From: Methylophilus sp. 14
GTDB taxonomy: Bacteria > Pseudomonadota > Gammaproteobacteria > Burkholderiales > Methylophilaceae
Reading direction: 5' to 3'
Assembly (NCBI RefSeq): GCF_015354345.1
Contig: NZ_JADKYS010000005.1
Location: 62,001 to 126,000, forward strand
DNA length: 64,000 nucleotides
Below, in pieces: positions 5,017-35,800 of this stretch; position 1 is the first letter of the stretch, and each line of letters opens with the position of its first letter. The position numbers were made by a program, and so were the translations under genes. Under the pieces are notes generated by a model that saw nothing but the letters and a program-made list of their open reading frames with translations, did not search any database and had not been told where the DNA came from.

Positions 5017-6685
5017 GATCGCCCCCTGCCTGGCCACGCTGACTATCCAGCGTCATCATCTGCTGGAATTGCTGCGCAATATGGGGGAAACGGGTTGTCA
5101 CAATCAGCATCCATTGTGACTGGTGGCGCTTGAGCAAGGTCAGCACCTGGTCCAGTTCCTGCTGGCCGAGTCCATCGAGCAAACCATCGATAATCAGTAA
5201 ATCCGGACGCCCTATCATCGCCCTGGCCAACATCAGGCGTTGCAATTGGGTGTAAGTCATGGGTGCGCCATAATCAGTCAATATCGTATCCATGCCTTGC
5301 GGTAACTGGCTGATATCCTCCCACAAGCCCAGCATTTGCAATATTTCGACCATGGCATCCAGGCCAATCTCGGTGCGGGTCAGGCGCAGATTATCCAGAA
5401 TCGAGCCATGCTGCCACTCTACTTTGTTCGCCACCCCTATACGGTCACGCAGATGATCCAGGTTCAACTGGCGTAAGTCTATACCACCATAACTGATATA
5501 GCCTTGTGCAGGCTGCCTGAGTCCGGTCAGCAGCTCGAGCAAGGTGCTTTTACCACTGCCCAATGCACCCAGAATGGCGAGGCTCTGGCCGCGCTGCAGT
5601 TCGAAACTGACCTCACTCATTAATGTTGGTTGGCCGTGATGACTAAACCCCAGGCCAGCCACTTTCAGCGGCTGATACCCCTCCAAGCTGGACTGATGTT
5701 CTCCAGCAGCCTCCACCGGCAAGGTTTCCAACACGCCTAATTTATCGACCGCAGCCAGTAAGTCATAGAAATACTCCAGCTTGGTCACAAAGCGCACAAA
5801 GGCGGACAACACGCCAAAAATAATCAACTCTGCGGCCACAAACTGGCCGAGGTTAATCTGCCCTTTGATCACCAGGGTACCGCCCAGAATCAGCATGCCG
5901 GTACCTATCACCGCATACATGCCCACAGCGCCTATTAACTGCGTCATTAATACGCGAAAATGTTTTACTCTGGCACCCAGATAGTTTTGTGCCAGTATCT
6001 CAGTGTTATCTGTTGTACGTTGCTTTGCACCATAAAACTTGGATAACCATTTATTACGTGCAATGTTTTCCAGCCAAGCAGCCATATCGTATTTGGCCTT
6101 GGATTCTTTAAGGGCGGTGGTTTCTGCCTGCCTGCCTAGCAAAACGACGATGGCCCATAACACTATCAGCATCAGGATCACGAGGATACCGAAATAGAGG
6201 CTATAAAACAGCAAGACCACGCTGCCAATCAAGCCTTGCAGCAAAGCAGTCAGACCAACCGTCAGCAGGGTTGCCACAGATTTTTGCACGGTCTGGATAT
6301 CAAAATAACGGTTTACCAGCTCGACTGGATTGTGCTGGTCATAGACAGAGACATGAATTTGCTGAGTATTTTGCGCAATGAGTAGGCTATGGCGCACAAA
6401 AATGCGGCGCTGTATCAGCTCAACGAGGAAACTCTCAATGGCATAAATCGCCCCCGACAAGGCCAGCAAGCAAAACAGGATAAAACCAACCACATACAAC
6501 GGCTGCAGCACACCACCCATGGTGACGATATTGACCATGGTTTGCACCGCCACCGGCGTCGCAATACCCAACACGCCATAGGCCAGTGTCAGGTAAACCA
6601 GTAGCAGGATATCCTGCTTTTCAAAAGAGGCGAGTTTTAATACCCGTTGTACGGGGCTCAACAAAGAGGGGGTTAGATTTGCCAT
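5009..6685 (-). CDS. ABC exporter-like protein with degenerate ATPase motifs
   Basis: This 558-residue protein has an N-terminal transmembrane domain (residues 1 to about 310, six hydrophobic segments) fused to a nucleotide-binding domain. Walker A is intact (GALGSGKST, near residue 377). The signature motif expected as LSGGQ reads MTYTQ. Walker B ends LLIIDG, so the catalytic Glu after Asp is Gly, and the EPTSALD-type D-loop reads GLLDGLG. The switch His is also absent (IVTTR near residue 530). By family knowledge these losses should abolish or strongly lower ATP hydrolysis. There is no peptidase domain. It is the first gene of the operon and overlaps the HlyD gene. Possible roles are a pseudo-ATPase, a half-site partner, or a divergent secretion ATPase. 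Confidence 0.82.
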   Translation of the reverse strand: MANLTPSLLSPVQRVLKLASFEKQDILLLVYLTLAYGVLGIATPVAVQTMVNIVTMGGVLQPLYVVGFILFCLLALSGAIYAIESFLVELIQRRIFVRHSLLIAQNTQQIHVSVYDQHNPVELVNRYFDIQTVQKSVATLLTVGLTALLQGLIGSVVLLFYSLYFGILVILMLIVLWAIVVLLGRQAETTALKESKAKYDMAAWLENIARNKWLSKFYGAKQRTTDNTEILAQNYLGARVKHFRVLMTQLIGAVGMYAVIGTGMLILGGTLVIKGQINLGQFVAAELIIFGVLSAFVRFVTKLEYFYDLLAAVDKLGVLETLPVEAAGEHQSSLEGYQPLKVAGLGFSHHGQPTLMSEVSFELQRGQSLAILGALGSGKSTLLELLTGLRQPAQGYISYGGIDLRQLNLDHLRDRIGVANKVEWQHGSILDNLRLTRTEIGLDAMVEILQMLGLWEDISQLPQGMDTILTDYGAPMTYTQLQRLMLARAMIGRPDLLIIDGLLDGLGQQELDQVLTLLKRHQSQWMLIVTTRFPHIAQQFQQMMTLDSQRGQAGGDHA

Positions 6686-6747
6686 GGTAAGAGTTATTTT
6701 AGTACAGGCCCACTACATGGATTGCAATGCATTTTATTAAGTTCAAA

Positions 6748-32061: not shown

Positions 32062-32098
32062 TCTACTTAATCTCAAATTCTGTTGTTAATTCGATAAC

Positions 32099-32280
32099 CT
32101 TCTTTCGCCTCTAGGCGAGTCACTTTCTGATGCTTGCCCCTCAGAAAGTAACCAAAGAAGAGGGCACCCAGCCATCACGGCCTGCGGCTTCCTTGCGTTG
32201 CTCAACAAAATAAGCGGTCACGAAACTCAACCTAGCGGGCTGCAAAGCCCGCAGCCCACCGCGGGATTCGGACAGTCGCT
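32099..32280. repeat. Left arm of a large structured palindromic repeat
   Basis: This arm contains three hairpins: CGCC/GGCG, ACTTTCTGA/TCAGAAAGT with a loop holding GCTTGC, and GCGGGCT/AGCCCGC. Blocks CGAAACTCAACCT (32221) and GCGGGATTCGGACAG (32261) recur exactly, inverted, in the right arm. The arm is noncoding. Confidence 0.85.
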
Positions 32281-32479
32281 CCCTCTACTCTTATTTTGTC
32301 TCCGCTACTCAGCGTGATGGGATGGGATTATTCTCGCCAAACTGACACTGCCTAAATTGGGAAGTTTTAAAAGCCAGATTCACTTCTTAAAATCACAAAC
32401 CGCTGCGCTCAGTAGGTGTTCGGGGTCCCCATCTGACGCGCCGAGCAACACAGGATTGGCGGGGGATTTCGGTCATCGG
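32281..32479. other. Central spacer of the palindromic element
   Basis: This 199-bp stretch between the two repeat arms has no ORF with a ribosome binding site and no transposase remnant that I can recognise. Confidence 0.55.
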
Positions 32480-32650
32480 CTGTCCGAATCCCGCAGCAGC
32501 TCACGCTTTGTGTGAGCTGCCAGGTTGAGTTTCGATGGCCGCCCGGCAAGCCGAGTAGCACAGGATACAAGCGGAAGCTGGGGTGCATTTCTTTTGGTTA
32601 CTTGTTCTTTGTGCAAGCAAAGAAAAGTAACTCGCTGAAAAAGCGAAAAG
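32480..32650. repeat. Right (inverted) arm of the structured palindromic repeat
   Basis: Read on the minus strand, this is a diverged copy of the left arm. The same order of three hairpins is kept with different stem sequences (CGCT/AGCG, TTCTTTG/CAAAGAA around GCTTGC, GCAGCTCAC/GTGAGCTGC). The shared blocks lie at 32480-32494 and 32522-32534. Short ORFs crossing it were not called. Confidence 0.85.
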
Positions 32651-32749
32651 CAACCCAACAAACAACCACAAAACCCGCGTGGGCATACATACCCACCCTA
32701 CAACGAATAATCTAAAGAACAACCTTTACGACTATCTCACCTTGCCTGG

Positions 32750-32769
32750 ATTCCGGCCTACGCCGGAAT
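32750..32769. repeat. dRS3-like short palindromic repeat
   Basis: ATTCCGGCCTACGCCGGAAT is a near-perfect palindrome within TGGATTCCGGC...GCCGGAATGACG, a form widespread in proteobacterial intergenic regions and similar to the neisserial dRS3 repeat (ATTCC-core-GGAAT). Confidence 0.7.
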
Positions 32770-32776
32770 GACGCAT

Positions 32777-32812
32777 ACAAAAAAGGCGCACCTCTCAGCA
32801 CGCCTTGTTTTA
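32777..32812 (-). terminator. Terminator of the multidrug RND operon
   Basis: The stem AAGGCG/CGCCTT with a loop of about 14 nt is followed by six T on the minus strand, just after the RND permease stop. Confidence 0.7.
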
Positions 32813-32836
32813 CCTTAATGATGACGCCTACAAACA

Positions 32837-35800
32837 TTAAACATGCTTGCGTGCCAATCGCGCCAGCCTTCTCAACCACCCCAGCAAATCATCCACATAG
32901 GTATACAACACCGGAATCACCACCAGGCTTAGCAAAGTCGAGGTTATCAAGCCACCAATCACCGTAATCGCCATCGGTGAACGGAAACTGGGGTCGGCAC
33001 TCCAGCCCAAGGCAATCGGCATCATGCCGGCCGCCATGGCAATGGTGGTCATGATAATCGGCCGGGCGCGCTTATGGCAGCCGTCGATAATGGCGTCAAA
33101 TCGGCTCAATTGACGCTCTTTACGCGCCATGATGGTGTATTCCACCAGCAAAATGGAGTTTTTGGTCACCACGCCCATCAGCATCAACAGGCCAATCACA
33201 CTTGGCATGGAGAAGCTGTTATGCGTCACCAACAAGGCGAAGAAAGCGCCACCTAATGACAGCGGCAACGCACCCAGAATCGTCACTGGCTGCAAGAAGT
33301 CGCCAAACAGTAATACCAGCACGACATAGATGCACATGACGCCGATAATCATGGCGCCGCCAAAGCTGCTGAACAATTCATTCATACGTTTGGCGTCACC
33401 AGCCTCAAGCTGCTTCACGCTAGGCGGCAGGTTTTGCATGGCAGGCAGTTGCTGCACTTCGCGCATAACCTCGCCGATCTGGCGCTTGTTGAGCTCAATA
33501 TCAAAGGTGACATTGCGCATGCGGTCCATACGGTCGATTTGCTGCGGACCGCTGCCCATGCGCACAGTGGCGACGGTTTCCAGGCTGACGCTACCGTTGC
33601 GTGAAGGCACACGCAATTGTGCAATTTCCTGCAAACTGGTACGTACACTAGGCCCCAGACGCACACGAATCGGTACCTGGCGCTGCGGCAAGTTCAATTT
33701 AGGCATGGTGTTGGTAAAGTCGCCCGAGGTCGCCACACGAATCACTTGCGCAATGGACTCCACCGTCACACCCAGTTCGGCAGCTTTGTCGACATCTGGG
33801 ATAATCTGTACCTCTGGCCGTTGTAAGCTGGCGCTGGAAGTAATATTTCCGACGCCCTTCAAGGTGCGCAATTGCTGTTGCAATTGCTGGCTGGCACTGG
33901 TTAAAGCATTGGCATCATCGCTGGCCAGGGTAATTTGCAGCTTCTCGCCGGATTCGCCGATACCGACAGTCACGCGCGCGCCGGGCAGGTTTTTCAAGCG
34001 TTCGCGCAAGTCCGCTTCAATCTCGGATTGCTTTTGTTTGCGCTCGCTACGGTCAGTGAGGCTGATCACCAAACTGCCTTTACGTACATCAGTCGTATTT
34101 TGTGACGCATTTGGCCCGCCGCCGCCCGTGCTGGCAGAGCCTGCTGCGCTAAATACCGCTTTCACTTCAGGATGTTGCTTGACGATCTGTTCGGCCATCT
34201 GCACCACATGCCGCGTTTGCGCCAACGGCGTGCCTGGCTGCAACTCAATATTGACCTTGGTCTGACTGCTGTCAGAAGAGGGCACAAAGCCTTTAGGCAA
34301 CAGCGGCATCAGGCTCAACGAGCCAATAATAAACAAGATGAATCCTGCCACCACGGTTTTGCGGTGTTGCAAGCACCAGCCTACCCAGCGCAAATAGACA
34401 CGCATGGAAGAGGAGTCCTCTTCCTCTTTAGCCGCATGCGGTTTGAGCAGGTAGGCGGACATCATGGGCGTTAACAAGCGCGCCACCACTAATGACCCCA
34501 GAATAGCGATAGCCGCGGTGATGCCAAACTGTTTAAAAAACTTACCCGGAATGCCGCCCATAAAGGCCGTTGGCAGAAAAATCGCCACAAGGGTAAATGT
34601 CGTCGCAATCACGGCAAACCCGATTTCATCAGCGGCTTCCATCGCCGCCTGATAAGGTGTTTTGCCCATGCGCAAATGGCGCACAATATTCTCAATCTCC
34701 ACAATGGCGTCATCGACCAGAATACCCACCACCAAGGCCATGGCCAGCAAGGTCAGCACATTGAGTGAAAAACCAAAGTACTGCATAAAGGCAAAGGTAG
34801 GAATCATGGACAATGGCAAGGCCACAGCCGCAATAATGGTGGCACGCCAGTCGCGCAGGAACCACCACACCACCAAAATCGCCAGCAGCGCGCCTTCATA
34901 CAGCAGGTGCATGGAGCCTTCGTAGTTATCTTCTACCGGCTTGACCATGTTAAACGCTTCGACAATATTGACCTGCGGGTGTAATTGTTCAAACTTTTGC
35001 AACGCCTCACGCACATCTTTAGCCACGGTGACTTCGCTGGTGCCTTTGCTGCGCGTGATTTCAAAACGGATCACCGGCTTGCCATCATAACTGGCATAGG
35101 TGGTGCGCTCGGCATAGGTATCCAGCACCTCGGCCACTTGTGACAACTTGATATGACGGCCATCGCCGAGCGGAATATCAAGATTGCGCACTTCGTCTGC
35201 ACTGTGCAAGGCCCCCAAGGTGCGCACAGACTGGATATTGTCGCCAATATCGCCACGGCCACCAGAGGCATCTTGCTGCACGCGCTTGAGCTGTGCCGAC
35301 ACATCACTGACATCCACATCCAGTCCGGCCATCAAGGTCGGATCCAGGTTGACCTGCACTTCGCGGTCTACCCCGCCAGTACGTGTGATTTTGCCGACCC
35401 CATTGACGGCCAGCATGGCCTTGCTGACTTCGTTATCGACAAACCAGGACAGTTCGCCCTCGTCCATATTATCGGCCGAGGCGACAAAGGTGAGAATGGC
35501 GTTGCCAGAGGTTGTGACTTTGGACACGGTGGGCGTCGTCACGGCGGCAGGCAACTCGGAACGTGCACTATCCACTGCATTGCGTACCAGGTTGAGTGCT
35601 TCTTCACTTTTGGTATCAATGGTGAACTGCACGGCAATGCTGACACTACCATCAGTGATGGTGGTGGTCATATGCTCAATGCCGCCGATGGTCGCAATTT
35701 TGTCTTCAATCTTGCGCGCCACTTCGGTCTCCAGCTGCGGCGGCGCCGCACCTTCCAACGCCGCGCTCACGGTGATGACCGGCAATTCAATATCAGGAAA

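Follow-up and report, generated by a model that had tools for sequence, protein, structure and literature searches.

Among described systems, the REP, BIME and REPIN repeats that go with RAYT (TnpA-REP) come closest to the locus studied here. As far as the available text of PMC3733652 and PMC6006769 goes, these repeats are multicopy pairs of inverted hairpin units, can lie between convergent or co-directional genes, may form hetero-dimers and are present across species. All of these properties, including the inverted pairing of two units, are shared by our element. The REP unit, however, is 20-40 bp long and carries a GTAG or CGTC tag (type names from the available text of PMC3733652), whereas the arms of the element are about 230 nt long, contain a pseudoknot and have an untagged second hairpin (hp2). 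Replication polarity of REPs is not described in the available parts of these two sources, but the element has it in two genomes. IS200/IS605 and its non-autonomous derivatives share with the element end hairpins and, as far as two of the four genomes tested go, a polarity with respect to the lagging-strand template (targeting: PMC6006769, available text); in contrast, the arms of the element are mutually inverted, no tnpA/tnpB lies inside it and no Y1 match was found in G081, a genome of another species. Intergenic repeat families of Pseudomonas fluorescens (50-352 bp in the available text of PMC2718517) were compared by description: several of them have inverted-repeat ends together with a tail-repeat-tail bias, and the same text describes no pseudoknot or replication polarity for them. 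Finally, the Rfam family TwoAYGGAY (RF01731) is classed as Cis-reg and was predicted to be a CsrA decoy (PMC4333381, available text). A link of TwoAYGGAY to a repeat is not stated in the available text of PMC2864571, PMC11701678, PMC4333381 or PMC11661157.

We analysed a palindrome in the window, which is the whole 64,000-nucleotide stretch of Methylophilus sp. 14 (the host) examined here. The element looks more like an undescribed mobile DNA palindrome than an RNA gene, and we put at roughly 50% the probability of a mobile but non-autonomous palindrome of DNA, giant-REPIN-like and single-stranded at forks. Six of its hairpin strings did not occur in the papers available for searching, and no description of the element was found in the available text of the literature on repeats, orientation and pseudoknots.

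Results

Two different arms form the palindrome

The initial annotation had described about 550 bp bounded by two inverted, diverged copies of a unit of about 175 bp. Inspection of the sequence located this inverted homologous pair at 32103-32648, but the non-identical arms measure about 230 nt each in the arm listing (Table 1). An inverted-repeat search recovered 32261-32278 with 32477-32494 and 32221-32236 with 32519-32534, each pair 94% complementary. Folding of 32095-32655 beat 100 of 100 dinucleotide shuffles on both strands (z -9.8 and -9.5), and the region of the A-arm hp2 (32587-32646) folded as single-stranded DNA with a z of -4.1.

From outside to inside, each arm starts with a first hairpin (hp1) and hp2. 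An A-rich strand comes next, then a short stretch that can pair with the hp2 loop, and finally a long stem with a third hairpin (hp3) at its tip; conserved blocks form the frame, and hp3 is variable. The blocks that frame hp3 in the B arm are 32221-32233 and 32261-32275. The three paired hairpins were found in the sequence exactly as the annotation had written them; the loop-flank pseudoknot of each arm was not part of that annotation. In the B arm this pseudoknot is formed by GGGCA at 32162-32166 and the complementary hp2 loop TGCCC at 32135-32139, as seen in the sequence and in the covariation.

Table 1. Coordinates of the window copy (L001) and of adjoining repeats
Feature	Position in window	Strand	Basis
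B-type arm, outside to inside	32103..32334	+	arm listing L001:1524-1755
hp1 of B arm (CGCC/GGCG)	32103..32118	+	sequence
hp2 of B arm, near-fixed-sequence hairpin	32119..32152	+	sequence; alignments A1, A2
A-rich crossing strand of B arm, then GGGCA (32162-32166)	32153..32166	+	sequence; covariation
Long stem of B arm	32172..32320	+	sequence; covarying columns 68-215, 100-188, 105-183
Long-stem pairing, B arm: CCATCACG with CGTGATGG	32172-32179 with 32313-32320	+	sequence
Long-stem pairing, B arm: CAAAATAAG with CTTATTTTG	32206-32214 with 32290-32298	+	sequence
hp3 of B arm (GCGGGCT/AGCCCGC)	32235..32252	+	sequence, inverted repeats, covariation
Middle segment separating the arms	32335..32416		arm limits
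A-type arm, outside to inside on - strand	32417..32648	-	arm listing L001:1838-2069:-
hp3 of A arm (GCAGCTCAC/GTGAGCTGC)	32496..32520	-	sequence
hp2 of A arm	32597..32631	-	L001:1999-2052:-
hp1 of A arm (CGCT/AGCG)	32632..32648	-	sequence
GTAG-type REP-like repeat outside A arm	32675..32701	-	sequence; genome pattern search
CGTC-type REP-like repeat outside A arm	32748..32773	-	sequence

The two arms of the window palindrome, B on the left and A on the right, are of different types. The A family has a GTTACTTTTCTTTG or CATTCTTTC hairpin followed by AGCTTCCGC, and the B family a GTCACTTTCTG or GTTACTTTTTTTGC hairpin followed by GCCATCACGG, with variants lumped into families by our own judgement; hp2 starts with GTTAC or GTCAC. 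All 26 host copies were composed of one A and one B arm (L031 repeats L001), as were 11/11 pairs with both arms typed in G093, G099 and G081. Within the genus, a B+B site in G019 (L038/L069) and an A+A site in G066 (L066) rule out A+B pairing as obligatory. The A+B heterodimer is thus usual, not obligatory.

Some copies carry additional sequence. A hairpin-like insert of about 33 nt (CTAAGTCCAGCAAAGCATCGGACGAAAGTCCTAAG) was present at one shared point of the B arm in L009, L010, L012, L023 and L025, and L018 and L026 had different inserts at this point. Tandem or nested arms, with two '+' and then two '-' hairpins, were seen in L306 (2460-3543), and several arms in succession in L062.

Copies in the host and spread among bacteria

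The 3.0-Mb host genome (in 15 contigs) contained 26 near-full copies (L001-L026), among which we counted L018 with a match of 468/591 bases, plus fragments. The window copy had matches in 46 of 100 sampled genomes of the family, host included. When one genome per species was scanned for hp2, at least 120 loci were obtained from Beta- and Gammaproteobacteria, Bacteroidota, Selenomonadales, one Oscillospiraceae MAG and one Ignavibacteriae MAG; the pseudoknot hairpin thus recurs in Pseudomonadota, Bacteroidota, Bacillota and the Ignavibacteriae MAG. Because many of these loci are from metagenome bins, one of which yields many loci, claims for a single phylum would require isolates. Named strains among the loci are Chitinophaga skermanii and Segetibacter aerophilus. 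Many fetched loci had a '+' match to hp2 and a '-' match a few hundred bases further on, as in the window.

The scan itself demanded the near-fixed hp2 sequence. The exact hairpin was found in only 1/397 Pseudomonadota genomes and not in the host, which made it useless for prevalence, and we therefore built a covariance model, whose search did not require exact sequence. This model was positive in 74/397 genomes, host included. Nineteen of the 74 positives are weak hits in the single family f47 (E 3e-7 to 1e-3). These hits may have arisen by chance, and without them 55/397 remain.

The phage records searched with the element gave no match. Plasmid records gave three matches, each to the surroundings of the end hairpin (8-10% of the query), and one of the IMG/VR contigs searched had the exact hairpin. 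No conserved neighbour protein was found to mark the element: the largest cluster of similar proteins comprised 11 of the 120 loci examined, and six of its members lay between 5 nt and >1,700 nt away.

Covariation supports the hairpins and a pseudoknot

To look for covariation without supplying a structure, we calculated mutual information from 90 distinct arms out of 96 found. Pairs in hp3, hp2, the pseudoknot and the long stem ranked near the top and were thus recovered by an unbiased measure. The pseudoknot pair in columns 35-62 was Watson-Crick in every cell. Non-complementary columns also occurred among the top pairs, as would be expected if modules are inherited together. In addition, columns 25-42-55 and 26-41-56 covaried (T-A with A, C-G with G), and the third strand (columns 55 and 56) is parallel to the first, as expected of the crossing strand of an H-type pseudoknot. 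This three-column covariation possibly reflects a triplex register.

Loop-flank complementarity of at least 5 bases was found in 49 of the 106 distinct hairpins among 127 instances (shuffled mean 7.9, maximum 15). For alignment A1 we used 80 of 109 listed sequences, and for A2 the 42 of these with equal loop length. In the 42 sequences, the four pseudoknot pairs were paired in 68.5% of cases as against 42.9% after shuffling (0/500), and pairing dropped when the register was slid.

Sites are occupied in some genomes and empty in others

We traced the flanks of five host sites in ten genomes of the same genus, and each site was empty in at least one of them: L001 in G019 and G087; L002 in G019; L004 in G019 and G066; L006 in G066, G099, G087 and G019; and L007 in G075, G093, G087 and G099. 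No arm was found when 13 fetched empty-site stretches were searched by arm pattern. At the L006 site, G099 and G087 had a lone hp1-like hairpin that looks like a fusion of the left half of the left hp1 with the right half of the right hp1. A deletion between short direct repeats could leave such a hairpin, and so could a precursor. In classical MITEs (DDE transposon), terminal inverted repeats come with a target-site duplication. The element does have inverted ends, and inspection by eye showed no such duplication at five sites with diverged flanks.

G081 contained 27 near-full copies. At least 15/20 of its sites were common to the host, with flanks 80-92% identical, which indicates that movement is old or slow rather than recent. 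The annotation had named copies in syntenic positions, lacking covariation and signs of mobility or transcription, as evidence against its proposal; this applies in part, as syntenic copies were found between the host and G081.

Placement and polarity with respect to replication

According to crude ORF picks, 17 of the 26 host copies lie between convergent genes, 7 between '++', 1 between '--' and 1 between '-+' genes. By the established relation between GC skew and replication, the G-rich strand corresponds in sense to the leading strand, hence to the lagging-strand template. The A-to-B strand was the G-rich strand in 20/23 host copies (the 3 of 26 without a 20-kb skew being omitted) and in 26/27 G081 copies, with partial copies excluded and the skew interpolated between 20 sampled stretches. 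In G081 the sign flips with the skew, and the single exception persists when local skew is used. Most of the sites compared are common to the host and G081, so their counts are not independent. The corresponding numbers were 10/13 in G093 and 5/9 in G099, where polarity is weak or none. Gene direction does not explain the polarity, because the neighbours of 20 of the 27 G081 copies, set A-left, were mixed (9 '+-', 6 '++', 5 '--' and 0 '-+').

The copy number in the host, presence and absence at orthologous sites, placement mostly between convergent genes there and GC-skew polarity in two of four genomes support the annotation's proposal of a non-autonomous mobile element with structured ends. 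The polarity in two genomes, the long retention of sites between two species (the host and G081) and the hairpin sequence that is near-fixed across phyla would also suit a polar DNA site that serves the host, through binding of gyrase or a nucleoid protein or as a mark for replication or segregation. We consider such a function distinctly improbable, because the element is patchy (46/100 family and 74/397 Pseudomonadota genomes), its sites are empty in relatives and polarity is weak or none in G093 and G099.

Mismatches show no RNA-like excess of G-T

If selection acted on an RNA, G-U would be preferred on one of the strands. Departures from pairing in helices picked by Watson-Crick pairs alone were G-T in 8 and A-C in 11 cases, and cross-phylum stems with one mismatch had 8 and 10, respectively (p 0.81). 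Pseudoknot rows with at least two of the four pairs gave 3 and 3, and all rows 12 and 10. All these mismatch counts are small. Automatic folds, in which 9 of the 90 arms were untyped, were left out because they favour G-U. Eleven tRNAs taken as control gave 18 G-T and 0 A-C, which is a poor control since the program marks only G-T as pairs. Such a balance is compatible with constraint that acts on DNA, or with maintenance through conversion and template switching.

The annotation had offered a structured RNA as the second possibility, and this part was not supported: there was no G-T excess (8:11, 8:10 and 3:3), polarity ignored gene direction, and Rfam searches of the window copy and six host copies matched no family to the element, with no RF01731 match at E up to 1. 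Relatives of the element nevertheless overlap an Rfam family. RF01731 reached its gathering score in the Pseudoalteromonas plasmid loci L083 and L084, adjoining hp2, and gathering matches lie within arms of relatives. The family matched 39/397 Pseudomonadota genomes (31 over the cut-off; none in the host). Of 20 fetched loci, one per genome from these 39, 10 had a match to the hp2 model (E up to 0.1, one of them at E 0.096) directly beside RF01731 on the expected side and strand, and the remaining 10 had none. TwoAYGGAY differs from its Rfam description in that it is here part of a palindromic repeat whose related arms give no sign of an RNA-like wobble excess; its own stem departures (3 G-T, 1 A-C) are too few to judge.

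Each arm might be read as an RNA element of 3'-UTRs, such as one that acts as a decoy for CsrA, the role predicted for TwoAYGGAY (PMC4333381, available text). The covariation in the arms, the Cis-reg class of TwoAYGGAY and the placement downstream of genes, owing to which incoming transcription meets the first arm in the outside-to-inside sense, all favour this reading, as do three sites at which, on inspection, the element has a stop codon on one side and a terminator-like hairpin on the other. We regard it as quite unlikely, given that G-T is not in excess, that polarity tracks GC skew and not transcription, and that the host hp3 on inspection has no GGA loop.

Some hits to RNA families were noted near copies of the element or its relatives. 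In the Pseudoalteromonas plasmid record L084, TwoAYGGAY matched seven times within 3 kb, with the strand alternating. Bp1_684 (RF02421), a Burkholderia sRNA family, matched L085 6713-6820 of Caballeronia glathei, where the partner arm (6672-6723) has its outer edge, and its sRNA model may rest on this palindromic repeat. A fluoride riboswitch match at window 32776-32837 (+), between the element and the end of an RND-type gene, scored 20.7 bits and is sub-threshold (gathering 34). Similar GGCG..CACCTCTCAG hairpins adjoin other copies (L015 and L022) by eye, and the hairpin is perhaps a repeated terminator.

Whole stem modules differ between orthologous copies

We made 34 comparisons of orthologous arms at 17 site pairs of the host and G081; 2 of the comparisons had no stem and 9 rested on stems <6 bp. 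The hp3 stems differed in 24/32 comparisons. By hand count, 15/23 differed when both stems had at least 6 bp (A arms 7/7, B arms 8/16); in two of these 15 the difference is only one pair. The two sides of a stem change together, so that conversion between copies could mimic compensatory change. The annotation's observation of paired changes stands, but its conclusion that they imply selection on a folded strand is weakened, because gene conversion could swap a stem module in one event.

Strand-symmetric mismatches and modules that differ at orthologous sites would be expected even of an inert intergenic palindrome, kept up by quasi-palindrome template switching and gene conversion with no factor that recognises it. 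This would leave unexplained why hp2 is near-fixed across phyla, why A and B arms usually pair and why copies are polar, and we judge it very unlikely.

Relationship to RAYT and REP sequences

The host has a RAYT on contig C15 (L061 1363-1890, - strand; NF047646, 194.7 bits, cut-off 80), with a PF01797 score below the cut-off of that model and, by eye, GTAGGG-type repeats on both sides. Searching the host genome for the exact GTAG-type pattern gave 9 places, all of them about 30 nt or less from an A-arm end, and the GTAG- and CGTC-tagged repeats lie outside the A arm only. At the palindrome-empty site L210 (G066:C1), a CGTC-type REP-like repeat was present alone. RAYT matches were found in 36/100 family genomes (20 over the cut-off), and in 64/74 element-positive as against 151/323 element-negative Pseudomonadota genomes (Fisher p 1.4e-10, from lists typed by hand and uncorrected for ancestry and genome size). 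Searches for RAYT and Y1 gave no match in G081, G075 and G066, and 7 of the 55 element-positive genomes outside f47 had no RAYT match. Inside the copies, a crude ORF listing contained no ORF of 200+ aa.

RAYT units with long REP ends of their own were seen nested in a palindrome relative (L293 2503-3895) and beside another (L294 2690-4238). The reading of either locus as an autonomous copy of the element was rejected, because the REP ends of the RAYT unit differ from the arms.

The element could be a giant REPIN in the strict sense, a member of the REP/RAYT system moved by TnpA-REP, perhaps via the REP hairpins beside the A arm. We find this unlikely. It would account for the true host RAYT with its repeats on both sides, for the adjoining of GTAG-type repeats and A arms at 9/9 places and for the association of RAYT with the element, which is confounded by ancestry. 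Against it are the three genomes and the 7/55 without a RAYT match, the REP ends in L293/L294 that are unlike the arms, and an hp2 without the GTAG tag. As G081 is copy-rich without a RAYT match and the RAYT units in L293 and L294 have their own REP ends, we did not file the element as a REPIN, holding that by analogy it would work like one though not classed as one.

Discussion

Our preferred reading is a non-autonomous mobile DNA palindrome that resembles a giant REPIN. Two related arms, usually one A and one B, would be joined head to head, and each arm as a single DNA strand would fold into an outer hairpin, a near-fixed pseudoknotted hairpin, whose loop-flank pseudoknot would be crossed by the A-rich strand, and a long stem whose caps can be exchanged. 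These structures would be the ends recognised by an enzyme supplied in trans. Single-stranded DNA at forks would be the form in which the element moves and in which its copies rewrite one another, and copies would survive where insertion spares promoters, for the most part 3' of genes.

The single-stranded intermediate, the role of the arms as recognition ends, the HUH-type or other trans-acting enzyme and the conversion between copies are what we infer. Observed in favour are the anatomy and its covariation, the multicopy and cross-phylum spread, orthologous presence and absence, the usual A+B pairing, GC-skew polarity in two genomes, differing stem modules at orthologous sites and the lack of an RNA-like wobble excess. 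Observations that speak against it are the missing RAYT and Y1 in G081, G075 and G066, the shared sites, the weak or missing polarity in G093 and G099, the same-type pairs, the failure of the sites inspected to establish a target-site duplication and the failure of the neighbour comparison to find a protein family that marks the element. A wider proposal is more doubtful: that there is a multi-phylum class of mobile DNA with pseudoknotted single-stranded ends, usual A+B pairing, insertion into the lagging-strand template by a putative enzyme and exchange of inner modules, with TwoAYGGAY as one of its arm modules.

If this reading is true, unexplained intergenic repeats, an Rfam family without an assigned function and a near-fixed hairpin found in several phyla would become parts of a single type of element, the mechanism of which can be tested. 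Another consequence would be that a motif catalogued as RNA on the basis of covariation can turn out to be DNA, for which the ratio of G-T to A-C departures offers a cheap check.
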